NCBI GenBank assembly: GCA_022180565.1
Contig: BQML01000007.1
Coordinates: forward strand, 1-64,000
Origin: Bacteroidia bacterium
GTDB lineage: Bacteria > Bacteroidota > Ignavibacteria > UBA10030
DNA length: 64,000 nt
Direction: 5' to 3'
Part shown: positions 32,725 to 39,560 of the stretch, piece after piece
How positions within the stretch are numbered: position 1 is the first letter of the stretch
Layout: every line of letters starts with the position of its first letter
The notes under the pieces: generated by a model
The model's database searches: none
What the model was told of the DNA's origin: nothing
What the model saw: only the letters and a program-made list of their open reading frames with translations
Position numbers and translations under genes: made by a program

Positions 32725-34926
32725 ATGACCGGATATGATTTCAAGAAGAACGTCCTCCCCCTTCTGATCAAGATCGGAATCGGGCTGGGGATCGGCCTTC
32801 TTGTCGTCGCCGTATCGTATTTCCTTAATATCGACTTTCTCAAGAAGGTCGAGTTGTTGACCCTCGATTACCGCTACCAGACCCGTTACGATCGATTGGC
32901 GGAAAGCGGGACTTTGAAGGACTTCTCCACGGCGGGAGATGTGGTCATTATCGGAATCAGCGATCAGGATAGCCGTGCCATGCCGGAGCCGTTTCCCTTT
33001 CCGCGGTCATACTACGGCCATCTCGTTGAAAATCTCAATCGTGCGGGTGCACGCGTCATTGCATTCGATATAACTTTTCAGGATCAGCGGGAAGGAGACG
33101 AGGTGTTCCGTGAGATCCTCCGGAAATACGATAACGTTGTTCTGGCTGTCAAATCCGAGGAGCAATCCACAGAACGTGCGTATGTCCGCTCCATCGAGCG
33201 GACGTATAACAACGTCTTCTACGATGTGAACAAGCGTGTGGGGGTCGTGAACATCATCAAGGACCGCGACGATATCGCTCGACGCTACTTTCCGATGATG
33301 ACGATCGGTGATTACCTTACGCCGACATTCGCGTTTGCGGTCCTCAACCGCCATTTTCAGCTTGACCCTACGGCAACACCACAACTGATCGACGATTTCA
33401 TTGTCATTGGAACGGCGCAAGGAGCCTACCGGGTTATTCCGCGGTTCGACGATCGATCGCTTCTTCTCAATTACTACGGTCCCAACAAATCCATTCCGTA
33501 CATCGACTTTGCCCAAGCCATCGACGACGCGGGGTTCAACACGAAGGACGAAATCGAAATCGGGGAAGAACTGAATCTGTTCGAGGGATCGGAGGCCCTC
33601 TTCAGGAACAAAATCGTTCTCATCGGCTCAACCATGCCGGAGGAACGAGACTATCACAGCGTGCCGATCAAAAATCCTGACGGCAACACGCTCATGAATG
33701 GGGTGGAAATCCATGCCACGGCGATTCAAAACATCCTCGATCAGGATTACATTACCGTCGCAAATCCTGCAACAGAAATCACCGTGATCCTTGTCCTCTC
33801 TCTCCTCGTTTTTCTAGGACTCCTCTGGTTGAAGTCCATCAAAACAAGACTGACCATCCTGGTTGAGATTGGCGCCGTTCTCGTCGTTCTTTTGCTGATC
33901 GGTGGCATCTTTGAATTCTCGGTGCTGATGTTTACCGAGTCCAATGCCTTGTTCAATATCGTCAATCCGAGCCTTGCCGTTGTCTTCTGTTACTTCGGCA
34001 CCGCCGTCTATCAATATCTGGCAGAGCGTCAGCAAAAAGCGCTTATCAAAGGCGTGTTCAGCCATTACATCAGCGCGGCGGTGGTGAATGAGCTGGTAAA
34101 CAATCCGGAAAAGGCCAAATTGGGCGGCGACCGCCGGGAGTTGACGGTATTCTTCTCGGACATCGCCGGTTTTACCACCATCTCCGAGCAATTTCACAAC
34201 AGGCCGGAAGGCCTCGTGGAATTACTGAACGAGTACCTTGACGAGATGACGTCCATCGTGCTCAAATACGGCGGAACGCTGGACAAGTACGAAGGCGACG
34301 CCATTATGGCATTTTGGGGGGCGCCCATCCCACAGAAGGATCATGCTTTGCGGACATGTGTTGCGGCCCTCGAGATGCAAAAACGACTGGCTGCCCTTCG
34401 GCCAAAATGGAAGAAGGACGGACGCCCACCTCTAGAGGTACGCTGTGGCATCAATACCGGTGTGATGATCGTTGGCAATATGGGAGGAAAAGACCGGTTC
34501 GACTATACGGTTATCGGCGACAGTGTGAACCTCGCTTCGCGCCTTGAGGGAGCCAACAAGCAATACGGGTCCAACATTATGATTAGCGATATGACCTACC
34601 AGCACGTGAAGGATAAGGTCATCGTACGGGAACTCGATCTTATCCAAGTCAAAGGCAAGACGGAGCCCGTGAAGGTGTGGGAATTACTGGGGACGAGCGA
34701 TATGCAGATGACCCCACAGCAGAAAGAGGCGTTGGAGATTTACACTCAAGGATTGGAACTTTACCGGGCACGCAACTGGCAGGAAGCCATCGGATACTTC
34801 AATCAGGCCCACACGCTGGACCCCCAATGCCACGTCGCCACGATTTATGCACAGCGCGCAGAACTGTACCAGCTCAATCCGCCCCCCGACGATTGGAACG
34901 GTGTGTTTGTGATGACAACGAAGTGA
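32725..34926 (+). CDS. CHASE2-domain adenylate cyclase (class III)
   Basis: A 733-residue membrane protein. A first helix (about 12-32) leads to a CHASE2 sensor domain in the periplasm (about 45-350; VVIIGISDQDSRAM, RVIAFDITFQD, PIKNPDGNTLMNGVEIHATAIQNIL). Three helices follow (about 353-435), then the cyclase (about 460-650). The metal Asp residues are in VFFSDIAGFTTIS and LDKYEGDAIMAFWGAP; the Lys there and the Asp in DYTVIGDSVNLASRLE fit ATP use. A TPR-like tail ends PPPDDWNGVFVMTTK. It likely makes cAMP in answer to an envelope signal, perhaps from the FecR protein of the same cluster. Confidence 0.94.
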   Translation: MTGYDFKKNVLPLLIKIGIGLGIGLLVVAVSYFLNIDFLKKVELLTLDYRYQTRYDRLAESGTLKDFSTAGDVVIIGISDQDSRAMPEPFPFPRSYYGHLVENLNRAGARVIAFDITFQDQREGDEVFREILRKYDNVVLAVKSEEQSTERAYVRSIERTYNNVFYDVNKRVGVVNIIKDRDDIARRYFPMMTIGDYLTPTFAFAVLNRHFQLDPTATPQLIDDFIVIGTAQGAYRVIPRFDDRSLLLNYYGPNKSIPYIDFAQAIDDAGFNTKDEIEIGEELNLFEGSEALFRNKIVLIGSTMPEERDYHSVPIKNPDGNTLMNGVEIHATAIQNILDQDYITVANPATEITVILVLSLLVFLGLLWLKSIKTRLTILVEIGAVLVVLLLIGGIFEFSVLMFTESNALFNIVNPSLAVVFCYFGTAVYQYLAERQQKALIKGVFSHYISAAVVNELVNNPEKAKLGGDRRELTVFFSDIAGFTTISEQFHNRPEGLVELLNEYLDEMTSIVLKYGGTLDKYEGDAIMAFWGAPIPQKDHALRTCVAALEMQKRLAALRPKWKKDGRPPLEVRCGINTGVMIVGNMGGKDRFDYTVIGDSVNLASRLEGANKQYGSNIMISDMTYQHVKDKVIVRELDLIQVKGKTEPVKVWELLGTSDMQMTPQQKEALEIYTQGLELYRARNWQEAIGYFNQAHTLDPQCHVATIYAQRAELYQLNPPPDDWNGVFVMTTK

Positions 34927-34973
34927 TCCACAGAACAGGCTGAAAGAGGCCATCGCCTCCGGCAGACCCCCCC

Positions 34974-36008
34974 CTACTCCCTCGCAAATCTTTCTTCCTG
35001 GAGCATTAACCTCAAGGAAATCCTGTGTGTTTCGCCCAGGTCATTGACAGTTGATCCGAACCGCGCAAACGAGTAGTCCACGTCGAGCTTGCGGAGGTGC
35101 AGACCGACACCCAAGGTTATCTGTTTGATGTCGTTATAACCCACCCGCAGGGCGACGATCTTCCTGAAATCGAATTCGAGACCGAGATGCGGATCGAGGC
35201 TTGCCGCGCCGACGTACGGGAGCTTGATGTACGCCACAGAGGCATACCGCCGGTGTTCAAACCGCACGTCCACATCAAACGCGGGGGCAAAGCGCCCTCC
35301 CCACATTTCAAAGAAATACACACTTCCGAATTTCAATGTGGGTGTAATAAGCTCCGTCCGACCCGTGTTCCATGCCACGAATGTTGTCGTGATGTCTTGT
35401 GCGTTGAGCGCGATGGACAGATTCTCCAGGGGGGAATAGAGAACACCGACGTCAAATCCGATTCCCGTCGCTCCGAATTCTGCCAGATCACGACGGATGA
35501 TCTTAACATTGGCGCCATAGGCAAACGTCGCATCGTCCCTCTTTGCGTATGAGAGATAGATTGCCCAGTCCGACGCGTTGAAGTAGGTGATCGAGCCATA
35601 ATCCGGCCGGTTATTGTCGTCGAAAAGGCCGTTGCCATTCACGTCCACCCAGGCATTGCGTGTATCGGGGATGCCGTCCACGCCAAGCCGTAAGACACTC
35701 AACGCCACTGTCGCATCCGGACCGTACGGAAGCGCGACCGACGCAAAATCGTAATTCACCAGGCCGCCGAATCGTTCATCGTGCATGCCGACAATGTCCG
35801 GATAATCGATGCGGGAAAGCGCGGCGGGATTCCAATACGCTGCGGTTGCATCATTGGCCAGAGCTGCGTGCGCTCCACCCATCCCAAGCGCCCGCCCACC
35901 GACGCCAATCGCCATGAATTCCCCTGCATACTTTCCAATGACGGTCTGGGCGGAGAGCCCAACAGTGCAGCAGGACAAGGCACCGATTGCAATCAGCAGT
36001 TTCTTCAT
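34974..36008 (-). CDS. PorV/PorQ-family outer-membrane barrel protein
   Basis: A 344-residue exported protein (signal MKKLLIAIGALSCCTVGLSA). The start of the mature part, AGEFMAIGVGGRALGMGGAHAALANDATAAYWNPAAL, is the signature of the PorV/PorQ (UPF0164, FadL-like) family. NLSIALNAQDITTTFVAW, DPHLGLEFDFRKIVALRVGYND and the aromatic strands to the end agree with a barrel. In Bacteroidota, PorV helps type IX secretion, but many relatives have no known link to it, and no por genes are nearby. Start ATG 36008 has GGAG upstream. A candidate small RNA with its own promoter lies upstream on the same strand and might instead be its attenuated leader. Confidence 0.88.
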   Translation of the reverse strand: MKKLLIAIGALSCCTVGLSAQTVIGKYAGEFMAIGVGGRALGMGGAHAALANDATAAYWNPAALSRIDYPDIVGMHDERFGGLVNYDFASVALPYGPDATVALSVLRLGVDGIPDTRNAWVDVNGNGLFDDNNRPDYGSITYFNASDWAIYLSYAKRDDATFAYGANVKIIRRDLAEFGATGIGFDVGVLYSPLENLSIALNAQDITTTFVAWNTGRTELITPTLKFGSVYFFEMWGGRFAPAFDVDVRFEHRRYASVAYIKLPYVGAASLDPHLGLEFDFRKIVALRVGYNDIKQITLGVGLHLRKLDVDYSFARFGSTVNDLGETHRISLRLMLQEERFARE

Positions 36009-36107
36009 GCAGGCTCCATAAAACGACAAACCGAATTCCCGCTCACGGAAACTCGGTTATGAAAACTAAGCGAATCGAAGAAGACAATCAAGCAGGGGGG
36101 CCTGAGC

Positions 36108-36214
36108 AAAAAAACTTGTGTCGCCGGTGCAAGGACGGGGACGTCACGGGAGGAATCCCCGCCTCGCTGGCCCACCCACCCCCCAGGATTAAGAAATGGG
36201 CCCGCCGGCGACAC
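36108..36214 (-). ncRNA. Candidate structured small RNA (about 107 nt) with terminator
   Basis: Transcription from the adjacent consensus promoter would start near 36214. That base begins GTGTCGCCGG, which is an exact 10-base partner of CCGGCGACAC at 36127-36118; the second arm is followed by AAG and seven T (36114-36108). The molecule is therefore closed end to end and terminates right after its closing stem. Inside, GGCCCA/TGGGCC (about 36202 and 36173) and CGGGGA/TCCCCG form two more stems, so a three-way junction is likely. The first loop is G-rich (GGGGGGTGGGTGGG). The SRP signature GGAAG..AGC and tRNA T-loop are absent. It could be a free RNA or an attenuator of the PorV-like gene 100 nt downstream. 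Confidence 0.6.
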
Positions 36215-36220
36215 AGTGGC

Positions 36221-36252
36221 ATTATACAATAATTTTTGGCACTTGTCAAGTG
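36221..36252 (-). promoter_or_regulatory. Consensus sigma-70 promoter with a palindromic operator over the -35 box
   Basis: On the minus strand, TTGACA (36249-36244) and TATAAT (36226-36221) are both perfect and separated by exactly 17 bp. The perfect 13-bp palindrome CACTTG-A-CAAGTG (36252-36240) is centred on the -35 box, which would let a dimeric repressor block polymerase. A 7-bp hairpin (36256-36274) immediately upstream, right after the stop of the preceding gene, isolates it. Confidence 0.8.
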
Positions 36253-36276
36253 TTTTTTCGGAAAATATCCGAAATT

Positions 36277-37449
36277 TTACGGAGACGATCCTGGCGGGTC
36301 TTTGACAACGAACCGATTCTTGAAGGGGTTCTCCCGGAAAAGCCTGCCGATGATGTAATTATCGAGGGCATCCCGCCAGCGGGTGATTTTCACGGGTTCG
36401 CTTGCCAGGCGCGATTCGTAGTAGCGTCCCTCAAGGCTCAGCGCAAACCGTAGTCGAAGGACAAAGAGAACGATGAGTCCAAAAACCGTCAAAAGCGAAA
36501 GCAACGCTCCGATGTTGAAATACCTGATGTAGGCGGCATTGTCTTTAAGACCTGCATAGATCGAGAAGTGGAAGACTTCAAAGATCGAGAAGCAAAGGAG
36601 CAGAATCGTAATCCGCTCAAAATAGACCCCCCGTGGTGATTCGCCGACAAACCAGTACAAAATGAGGCACAGGATAAGGGCACCTGCAATCAGATTTCCC
36701 TTCCACCACATCACGTTAAGGGGTTTGAAGACCAACAGGTTGTAATTACTGCCGAACAGATACGGCTCGAGTTCCGCTATTCGCTGCACTTCCTCTTCGT
36801 GCGTCAGTTCCCCGACGCGCTTCTGTCCGTCCCAACGCGATAATCCCACCCTTTCCGCAACGAGCGATGGTTCCGGATGTGTCTGAGTCTGACCATAGAG
36901 TTCCATCCAGGCCCTGTCCACAATTCTGAAGTCCGTGACATCCGGCGTAGTGTAGAGATAGCGCGGATTTTCGATCATCGGCCAGTACACCGACAGGAAC
37001 AGCACGACGGCGGGGACAAAGATCATTGCCAGCGCTCTCGAAACCCGCATCTGTGTATTCATCAGCACACCCGCACCGACGATGCACGTTCCCTGAATAA
37101 CCAGGCCCAAACCGGCTGTGACATATTGAAAGTAGAAGAATCCGGCAAAACGCTCTCCGGGAAACAGGATAGGCGCGAAGAAGTAAGCAATGTCGAGGAC
37201 CTGTTGGATTCCAAGCACCGCAAAGAGCGCGAAAACGATCTTGTTCCTTCCACTCATCTCCGCCCGCCAAAGAAACATGGCAATGATCCCAAGAAACAAC
37301 AGCATTAGTTGCCGATACAAAGAGAAAAGCGGTGTTGCCTCGTGCGGCAGTTCCATGAGCGCAGCAATCAGGAGGATCACCACAAGCCCAAAAACACCGA
37401 CGGCGCTCAGAAGGTACTCGCGAAAGCCGAACAACCTTGCCGAAGTCAT
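36277..37449 (-). CDS. Polytopic membrane protein of unknown function, paralogue A
   Basis: A 390-residue protein with about five hydrophobic helices in the first 165 residues, a soluble segment of about 85 residues, then four more helices and a basic tail. The soluble segment (TPDVTDFRIVDRAWMELYG... LSRWDGQKRVGELTHEEEVQRIAELEPYLFG) matches that of the next gene almost block by block. The tail YYESRLASEPVKITRWRDALDN also matches. I recognise no family. It overlaps its paralogue by ATGA, so the two are translationally coupled and may form a heterodimer. Membrane sensor or transporter roles are both possible. Confidence 0.8.
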   Translation of the reverse strand: MTSARLFGFREYLLSAVGVFGLVVILLIAALMELPHEATPLFSLYRQLMLLFLGIIAMFLWRAEMSGRNKIVFALFAVLGIQQVLDIAYFFAPILFPGERFAGFFYFQYVTAGLGLVIQGTCIVGAGVLMNTQMRVSRALAMIFVPAVVLFLSVYWPMIENPRYLYTTPDVTDFRIVDRAWMELYGQTQTHPEPSLVAERVGLSRWDGQKRVGELTHEEEVQRIAELEPYLFGSNYNLLVFKPLNVMWWKGNLIAGALILCLILYWFVGESPRGVYFERITILLLCFSIFEVFHFSIYAGLKDNAAYIRYFNIGALLSLLTVFGLIVLFVLRLRFALSLEGRYYESRLASEPVKITRWRDALDNYIIGRLFRENPFKNRFVVKDPPGSSP

Positions 37450-38615
37450 TGTTCTGTCGTTTTATCCGGCCGATGGCTCGCGCCCTGTACTCTCCGTTTG
37501 ACCGCCAACCTCCGCGCGAAACGGCCAGACCAGGCAAACCGATGAATGACCAGCTCGTCAATTCCATCCCGCCACCTGCTGATCGATCCCGCATCTGTTG
37601 CAATCCGCCGTTCGTAGTATGTACCCTCGGACCTTCCCAGAAACGCAAGCCGTTTGTAAAAGAAGACCGCGAAGAGAATCATGACCAGTGCCGTTACATA
37701 TTTCCCGATCTCGTCCAGAGTTGTTACTTCCAGAAACGAGGTTGCCCGAAAGAGCGCGAGGGCATGAACGTACTCCAGCACGCAATACAGCAAGAGCGTG
37801 AAATGAATCTTCTCCATGTGCGCCGGGTCCGGAGGATCGTGGATGTATTTCAGCCCCAGAAAGATCGTCAGCATCAAAACACAGAAAAGGGAGAGAACGG
37901 CCGTTAACGCATGGAGCGGCCGGTTGACAAGCGCAATATAGTCGTTTCCAATCGTGTACGGGAGCAATTCGGCAATCCTTGCTCTCTCCCTCTCAGCGGA
38001 CAACTCTCCGATCCTTCGCACACCCTCCCATTCCGACAACGCCACCAATTGAGCCAGGTCTTCAGGCAACGGATTCGACAGCCCGCGGCTTATCAACTCC
38101 CCTTTCGCCCTGTCGATAATTCTGAAATCCGTTATTTCCGGCACCGTATAGACGTAGTGCGGATCCTTGAGAAACGGGTAGCTGTACGTCCCCACCAGAA
38201 GGACGGTTATGACTCCGGCAAGCGATGCCTGCTCCCAGAGCGCGCGATACTTTGCAACAACCTTCAGGAGCAGAAACGCCGAGAGCAGCGTCAACAATCC
38301 GCAATACACGACGTTGCCGTATTGAATAATTACGAACGCCCTGTCGAAGCCGACAAGGAACGACACCATGTCGGCCTTGATCAGCCCGAACAAGGCATGA
38401 ACTGAAAAGAAGAGTCCATAGATGACGGCGGTGACGCGGGACATCCCCTTTTGACTCTTTCCAGCTACGGCAAAGGCCAGAAGGGCGAGGAAGACCCCCA
38501 GACTGCGGATGAACGCATGGGCAAGGCCTGGAGAGTGGCGTGGAACCATCAGAACAGCAAAGACTGCAATGCCGGCGATCCCCGCAGAAGCCGCAAGGCA
38601 ACGATGCGAGTTCAT
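37446..38615 (-). CDS. Polytopic membrane protein of unknown function, paralogue B
   Basis: A 389-residue protein with the same layout as its neighbour: about five helices, a soluble segment (TVPEITDFRIIDRAKGELIS... LSEWEGVRRIGELSAERERARIAELLPYTIG), further helices, and a tail YYERRIATDAGSISRWRDGIDELVI. Shared blocks with paralogue A are DFRI-x-DRA, LS-x-W-x-G-x-x-R-x-GEL and RIAEL-x-PY. The N-terminal helices differ. Its ATG follows directly on the TGA of the AAA+ regulator gene. Function not known; the arrangement implies that the regulator and both membrane proteins work together. Confidence 0.8.
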   Translation of the reverse strand: MNSHRCLAASAGIAGIAVFAVLMVPRHSPGLAHAFIRSLGVFLALLAFAVAGKSQKGMSRVTAVIYGLFFSVHALFGLIKADMVSFLVGFDRAFVIIQYGNVVYCGLLTLLSAFLLLKVVAKYRALWEQASLAGVITVLLVGTYSYPFLKDPHYVYTVPEITDFRIIDRAKGELISRGLSNPLPEDLAQLVALSEWEGVRRIGELSAERERARIAELLPYTIGNDYIALVNRPLHALTAVLSLFCVLMLTIFLGLKYIHDPPDPAHMEKIHFTLLLYCVLEYVHALALFRATSFLEVTTLDEIGKYVTALVMILFAVFFYKRLAFLGRSEGTYYERRIATDAGSISRWRDGIDELVIHRFAWSGRFARRLAVKRRVQGASHRPDKTTEQ

Positions 38616-39560
38616 TCAGTGTTGAATGTTCTGGATCCCGAGCTTTTTCATACGGTACCGCAACGTGTCTTCCGTGATTTTCAGAAAACGCGCTGCTTTG
38701 CTCTGGTTGAAGCCGAACTTGCGCAATACCCGCTCAAGGATCCTCTTTTCGATCAGATCCATCGATCGATCAATCGCGAAGCCTATCCCCTGATCGATCC
38801 GTTCCAGCATCTGCGTCAACTCCGACTGTTCATCAACAAGGGTTTCCGGAAGGACAAAGGTTTCTTTGTTCTCCGAAAGAAGCATTGCGCGCTCAACGAA
38901 CGATTTCAATTCCCGGATGTTTTCCTTCCATTCCTTCCGCACCAACACCGCCACGGCATTCACATCAAGAACCACTTCACCAAGACCCATTTCTCTCGCT
39001 GTTTCAAACACGAAGTGTTCCACCAGGTCGGGAATATCCTCGACGCGCTCTCGCAGAGAGGGCATGTGGATCGTATCCCATGATCGGGTCAACTTGATCA
39101 GCGCAGGGATGATCTTCCCCTCCTTCTGAAGGTTTTTCGGAGAATCGTTCAGCAAAAGCATCAACCTGATTCCGGAATCCGACTCCTCCACCCTCTGGAT
39201 GAAATCCGCAAGAATGGTTTGAGCGGGCTCACTTGCGCGATCAACTTCGTCAAGGATCACCGCGGCACCGTCCGGAAGATGGAAGTTCCCGTGCGCGGAT
39301 GTGATGGGGTTCAGGAATTCTCGTTTCGAAAGAATCGATTGGACGATCGACCGAAGTCTGAGTTCGTCTATTGTCGCTGTGTTCAGATTGGCAAACGGCT
39401 GATGTGACATCTTGCCCGACTGGTGCAGGAGTTCAGCAACGACGCTTTTTCCTGTCCCCGGCTCGCCCGTGATAAGCACATGGGAACCGGACTGTGCCAG
39501 GCGCTTGACGGTTTCACGAACCTGTTGGATGTGCTTGCTGCCCCCGATGAGAGTTTTCAC
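38616..39560 (-). CDS. Sigma-54-activator-like AAA+ protein lacking GAFTGA, with Fis-type HTH
   Basis: A 314-residue protein with no N-terminal receiver domain. Walker A is GEPGTGKS (32-39), Walker B GAAVILDEVD (99-107), and MPSLRERVEDIPDLVEHF is the sensor/arginine-finger block of enhancer-binding proteins. The ending FGFNQSKAARFLKITEDTLRYRMKKLGI is a Fis-type helix-turn-helix. The loop that contacts sigma-54 (GAFTGA, expected at about 75-90) is replaced by SILSKREFLNPITSAHGNF. It therefore probably does not activate sigma-54, and may act as an ordinary DNA-binding regulator. GTG start with AAGGGG upstream. First gene of a coupled three-gene operon. Confidence 0.88.
   Translation of the reverse strand: MKTLIGGSKHIQQVRETVKRLAQSGSHVLITGEPGTGKSVVAELLHQSGKMSHQPFANLNTATIDELRLRSIVQSILSKREFLNPITSAHGNFHLPDGAAVILDEVDRASEPAQTILADFIQRVEESDSGIRLMLLLNDSPKNLQKEGKIIPALIKLTRSWDTIHMPSLRERVEDIPDLVEHFVFETAREMGLGEVVLDVNAVAVLVRKEWKENIRELKSFVERAMLLSENKETFVLPETLVDEQSELTQMLERIDQGIGFAIDRSMDLIEKRILERVLRKFGFNQSKAARFLKITEDTLRYRMKKLGIQNIQH

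Follow-up and report, generated by a model that had tools for sequence, protein, structure and literature searches.

A conserved structured RNA upstream of porV in one genus of Ignavibacteria: a candidate leader domain of a type IX secretion gene

Attenuators and riboswitch leaders, such as the rimP leader, place a promoter, a structured domain and an intrinsic terminator upstream of a coding region; a general survey of premature terminators (PMC2965389) was used for comparison. The RNA described here lies on the minus strand of a 64,000-nucleotide stretch of DNA (the window, from genome G000) and shares this arrangement, but it carries no known aptamer or binding motif, and its antiterminator pairing is no better than that of shuffled sequences. 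Two other described RNAs are comparable in part. SRP RNA (RF00169) is likewise about 100 nt long, single-copy and stably folded, whereas the window RNA is a three-way junction and the genome has its own SRP copy, the only match, on contig C9 (G000:C9:76499-76599). 6S RNA (RF00013) is a free-standing regulatory RNA with a closing stem, but the window RNA has no central bubble, and the only 6S-like match of the genome, below the cut-off, sits on contig C47 (G000:C47:22486-22713). Both identities were rejected because the corresponding RNAs are elsewhere in the genome, in agreement with an earlier note on this DNA, which had found no SRP or 6S signature. The Rfam search proposed there was run, and no family matched the window RNA: Rfam 15 gave no match in the 64 kb at the gathering score. 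The best sub-threshold matches in the window and in G001, a second genome of the same genus, were at chance level, and sR45, snoU61 and RsaE were rejected as being at chance level, on the wrong strand or outside the RNA. In the papers searched, no RNA-level control was found for type IX secretion system (T9SS) genes of Ignavibacteria-type bacteria, queries on leader RNAs or attenuation in connection with T9SS genes gave nothing relevant, and no single paper mentions Ignavibacteria, PorV and type IX secretion together. A flavobacterial transcriptome study (PMC9723704) lists a PorU gene among its promoters and treats structured 5' regions in general terms, in passages that do not describe the window RNA. 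The features of the locus are as follows.

36249-36244, minus strand: -35 box TTGACA, read from the sequence and kept in G001.
36226-36221, minus strand: -10 box TATAAT after a 17-bp spacer, no mismatches; TATACT in G001, also at 17-bp spacing.
36240-36252, no strand: 13-nt palindrome CACTTGACAAGTG, with 6-bp arms around one base, overlapping the -35 region.
36214-36205, minus strand: 5' arm of helix P1, GTGTCGCCGG, from the fold; its first base is the predicted transcription start.
36169-36202, minus strand: P2 arm, GGCCCATTTCTTAATCCTGGGGGGTGGGTGGGCC, with 33 consecutive nt the same in G001 and two possible pairing registers.
36129-36167, minus strand: P3 arm, with one compensatory and four one-sided changes in the stem and an invariant loop side, GGGGATTCCTCCCGTGAC.
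36127-36118, minus strand: 3' arm of P1, CCGGCGACAC, from the fold.
36117-36115, minus strand: AAG after P1, from the sequence.
36114-36108, minus strand: U7 tract (T7), a possible intrinsic terminator of the 107-nt RNA; TTTATAAT in G001.

The 107-nt RNA folds at -59.7 kcal/mol with a GC-corrected z of -4.6, below all 6,086 sampled 107-nt windows on both strands, and the 115-nt stretch folds at -60 kcal/mol (shuffle z -3.6), with none of 200 shuffles as good. The fold check suggested by the earlier note thus returned the most stable fold among the sampled windows. It also reproduced the proposed three-way junction, in which P1 closes the structure and P2 and P3 lie inside. As had been described, the predicted start base opens a 10-bp helix (11 bp counting the base before the start), the second arm of which is followed by AAG and T7. 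The G-rich run, for which a quadruplex had been considered, is present and invariant between the two genomes, but the predicted fold pairs it as P2 and the quadruplex carries little weight.

A homologue of the RNA was found in G001 (record JACQPU010000263.1, an Ignavibacteriales MAG), the one other carrier among 100 related genomes, where it adjoins the same upstream gene and keeps the promoter as TTGACA-N17-TATACT. The two RNAs are identical in 90 of 105 aligned columns (86%), with unchanged runs of 33 nt in the P2 arm and 19 nt on the loop side of P3, and the G001 RNA alone has a fold z of -4.7. The adjacent coding alignment shows 60% identity, 38% at third positions, and a longest run of 13 nt. 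Differences between the RNAs cluster in the P3 stem, where one C-G pair becomes U-A and four changes are between G-C and G-U, and no pair is broken. The covariation check thus shows one compensatory and four one-sided changes in P3. P1 and P2 are invariant across the two sequences, so that the support for these helices comes from folding energy and conservation only. In the two-sequence alignment, N placeholders at three 1-nt indels keep the register; since such indels break any frame, they argue against a conserved reading frame, and coding on either strand was rejected. A downstream C6 tract, able to pair with G6 of P2, was likewise rejected because it is absent in G001.

These data bear on the explanation that the locus has no specific function and is just a stable, GC-rich hairpin region, its conservation being due to chance or to recent common ancestry. 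There are two sequences only, and the invariance of P1 and P2 leaves these helices without covariation; against this stand the 33 identical nucleotides, compared with 38% identity at neighbouring third codon positions, and the extreme folding energy in both genomes, and we regard this explanation as very unlikely. A structured RNA with its own promoter, as first proposed, is borne out by the fold statistics together with the G001 homologue and its P3 changes, and a structured, conserved RNA at this locus is very likely.

The perfect TTGACA-N17-TATAAT promoter reported for the locus agrees with the sequence, and it is the single perfect pair with a spacing of 15-19 in the window. The promoter pattern with up to two mismatches has nine matches in the window, with 1.9 expected. 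The start base is predicted to be the G at 36214 on the minus strand. Promoters of the type AAAAAACACTTGACA also recur in the order before other genes, apparently for secreted proteins (L010, L011, L014 and L015). The CAC...AAG flanks of such promoters largely account for the palindrome in the window, which is probably a by-product of the promoter sequence and not an operator. The palindrome is present as had been noted, but it deserves little weight: 13-mers of the same palindromic type occur 17 times in the window, and the site is broken in G001, where it reads GACTTGACAAGCG. The operator was rejected on these grounds, and regulation through it, which the earlier note had inferred, is unsupported. 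Because the palindrome is lost and T7 reads TTTATAAT in G001, neither the operator nor, less firmly, self-termination is a conserved feature.

The RNA is single-copy in its genome. A covariance model built from the window and G001 sequences (R1) found only these two genomes among 391 of the class, and a 28-mer with three mismatches found only the same two among 98 genomes of the order. An 18-mer pattern run over GTDB genomes and viral contigs gave other matches, all of which fail the RNA model. The possibility that the locus is a small mobile, MITE-like DNA element with the P1 arms as terminal inverted repeats can draw on the perfect 10-bp ends in the window and ends of about 13 bp in G001. 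It is hard to reconcile with a single copy, with the same locus and promoter in both genomes, with an internal stem whose changes keep the pairs and with the lack of another copy in the 391 class genomes, and is the least probable explanation considered.

Downstream and upstream of the RNA lie the following features.

34974-36008, minus strand: porV-type gene of the PorV/PorQ family, above the cut-off of NF033709; the best model is PorVQ2, below its cut-off.
36059-36030, minus strand: second hairpin, AACCGAGTTTCCG-TGAG-CGGGAATTCGGTT, then TTTGTCGTTTT; the likely counterpart of the porV terminator of the family.
36277-37449, minus strand: upstream gene of 390 aa with no Pfam or NCBIfam match, which is also the neighbour of the RNA in G001.

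The upstream gene does not help to trace the RNA by synteny, since its homologues elsewhere precede a sigma-54-activator-like gene and not an RNA. It belongs to a pair of related membrane-protein-like genes (36277-39560), neither of them matched by Pfam or NCBIfam, and a gene resembling sigma-54 activators, with a Fis-type HTH, lies upstream of the two. Since homologues in other family genomes also precede a similar activator gene, this pair has the look of a recurring cassette.

The porV-type gene has 57-70% identity to its counterparts in most genomes of the family, with 27 strong matches including its own. Most of these orthologues are preceded by a TTGACA- or TTGATT-type promoter, AAAGGA near the 5' end, a P1 helix ATTGTTAGAG/CTCTAACAAT, a terminator hairpin CCGAATTC..GAATTCGG and U6, directly followed by porV. 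A model of nine such leaders (R2) has a covariation score exceeding all 500 shuffles and matches 19 of 26 family loci with E < 0.02, nine of these 19 being in the model itself. Over the class it gives single copies in 50 of 391 genomes, the weakest of which are doubtful. In a sister family, all 13 loci read have a terminator directly before the porV-type gene although the upstream genes differ, and the R2 matches lie mostly 10-20 nt from the porV start codon. The layout recurs in further lineages of the class, there ahead of genes resembling porU (L133, L139, L140, L142, L146, L150, L152 and L153). No Rfam family matched the leaders of fifteen porV loci.

Some further observations were made at these leaders. 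The ATTGTTAGAG/CTCTAACAAT helix and a CCGAAT..ATTCGG terminator occur before porV-type genes of the family and the sister family at L072-L096 and L119-L138. In several leaders (L079, L080, L074 and L085) GAAAGGACA at the 5' end and TGTCCTTTC behind the terminator are complementary; both sides are changed in G016 and G027, and a possible outer helix, P0, could form. Near porV in G013, L078:3258-3673 gave a sub-threshold match to the cspA thermoregulator, scoring 35 bits where the gathering score is 78, with an E of 1.7e-5.

In the window, a promoter, a structured leader and a terminator-like hairpin lie upstream of porV on the same strand, which is the attenuator layout. The hairpin at 36059-36030 folds at -18.1 kcal/mol, is followed by an interrupted U-tract (TTTGTCGTTTT) and aligns weakly to the R2 terminator, scoring 10.9 bits, with an E of 0.011 in a search of 501 bp and of 3.7 when 169 kb were searched. 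Only this terminator part of R2 aligns; the P1 helix ATTGTTAGAG/CTCTAACAAT preceded by AAAGGA is not in the window. The usual 5' domain, whether of the R2 type or of the porU type (R3, below), is missing; its position behind the same kind of promoter is occupied by the three-way junction. The computed features are the fold, its conservation, the promoter, the terminator-like hairpins and, in relatives, an attenuator layout ahead of porV. In G001 the contig stops short of porV and a contig overlapping downstream of its end was searched for and not found, so that the link between RNA and porV comes only from the window.

The earlier note had remarked that the RNA, if not free, might be an attenuator for the PorV-like gene. 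This reading is favoured because the structured leaders of porV orthologues end in a terminator directly ahead of porV, and a like hairpin is kept in the window. On the other side, the best candidate for an antiterminator here, in which the invariant P3 5' arm (CGGGGATT) pairs with the 5' arm of the terminator (-15 kcal/mol), is equalled by 43% of shuffled leaders. It was rejected on that account, and the statistics give no support to switching at this locus. We consider it slightly more probable than not that the RNA is peculiar to the genus and forms the structured 5' domain of a leader that controls porV (34974-36008) by transcription attenuation.

The strongest competitor is an independent trans-acting sRNA. 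P1 and U7 would end it at about 107 nt, its fixed loops (UCCUCCC in P3 and the G-rich P2 arm) would base-pair with mRNA targets or serve as a protein-binding site, and porV would be expressed via occasional read-through. This reading accords with the perfect promoter, the start base that opens P1 and the U7 right behind it, with loops that are fixed while the P3 stem drifts, and with the single copy. The evidence on termination is divided: U7 follows P1 in the window, as the proposal of a self-terminating, free RNA had it, but the tract is only partly kept in G001; P1 is longer there (about 13 bp), with TTTATAAT directly after it, and may still terminate. A P1 that closes a 97-nt three-way junction would be an unusual terminator stem. 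The RNA also shares its position and its type of promoter with the porV leaders of the family, and between it and porV there is a further hairpin that looks like a terminator. A cis leader of porV is thus favoured over a free sRNA, which we hold to be a substantial but lesser possibility.

The gene for the T9SS sortase, porU (NF033707), has a leader of its own in 29 of 32 family genomes, essentially one per genome; that of the genome of the window is at G000:C12:19627-19714 (L173), and others are L156-L178 and L184. It ends in a terminator directly before porU and contains a P1 of the form TTTG-n-TAAAGG / CCTTTA-n-CAAA plus an inner hairpin. These helices covary, with ten cells changed on both sides, a score reached by none of 500 shuffles and the best register at zero slide. 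As an alternative, the 3' arm of P1 is able to pair with the beginning of the terminator, as in ACCTTTTCA/TGAAAAGGT in G002, AAGCCTT/AAGGCTT in G006 and AGGCCTTTTTCA/TGAGAAAGCCT in G003. This pairing has a mean of -9.5 kcal/mol within a genome against -7.6 when swapped between genera (p 0.002), two terminators of genus g15 being wrongly parsed, an error that works against the result; averaged by genus (13 genera), p is 0.02. A mutually exclusive antiterminator pairing in porU leaders is therefore supported. Rfam gave no match at ten porU loci. Given their anatomy, covariation and lack of an Rfam match, together with the alternative pairing in the porU leaders, the porU and porV leaders look like undescribed T9SS transcription attenuators, and in related bacteria such leaders probably switch secretion genes on and off.

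The RNA of the window resembles these leaders in having a TTGACA-type promoter on one side and a T9SS gene on the other, with a structured 5' domain and a terminator-like hairpin shortly before the start codon. It differs in that its 5' domain has another sequence and fold, a three-way junction from +1 with a G-rich invariant arm. The shared position, promoter type and downstream hairpin would also fit membership of the porU/porV leader family with a divergence so strong that the sequence is no longer recognizable. However, R2 and R3 match nothing in the junction: the best R3 score in 34900-37500 is 5.4 bits (E 2.2), and a TATCG-TTGTTAAAGG/CCTTTATCAA P1 with an inner CCTGA hairpin was not found there. 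The start motif GGA-TATCG-TTGTTAAAGG/GTTAGAG is absent from the window, whereas porU in the same genome keeps it. We judge such divergence improbable. A bolder proposal is a new class of sensing RNA: the genus would have swapped its usual porV leader domain for an unrelated three-way junction with an invariant G-rich arm, while porU kept the ancestral leader. We advance this idea tentatively and consider it less likely than not. If it were true, two or more RNA sensors that are so far undescribed would act on T9SS genes of the class, feeding the same kind of terminator.

For the preferred reading as a porV leader, we infer transcription, termination, regulation and a signal as follows. Transcription would start at about 36214 from the strong promoter, and the first 100 or so nucleotides would fold into the three-way junction with its two arms of fixed sequence. 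The polymerase would then meet one or two terminator-like hairpins before porV, namely P1 with U7 and the hairpin at 36059-36030, and would either stop, releasing a short RNA, or read on into porV. The ratio of stop to read-through would be set by the signal that the junction senses, which may be a metabolite, a protein, an ion or the ribosome. Should U7 act as a terminator too, the 107-nt RNA would result, and the leader and sRNA readings would be two sides of one event.

These comparisons suggest that porU and porV each stand behind a conserved leader RNA, absent from Rfam and with the anatomy of an attenuator, and that one genus has replaced one of its T9SS leaders by a different, tightly conserved RNA. 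If confirmed, the leaders would add new candidates for riboswitches or protein-sensing RNAs whose targets are clear, and the locus in this genus would be a natural experiment in the exchange of leader RNAs.
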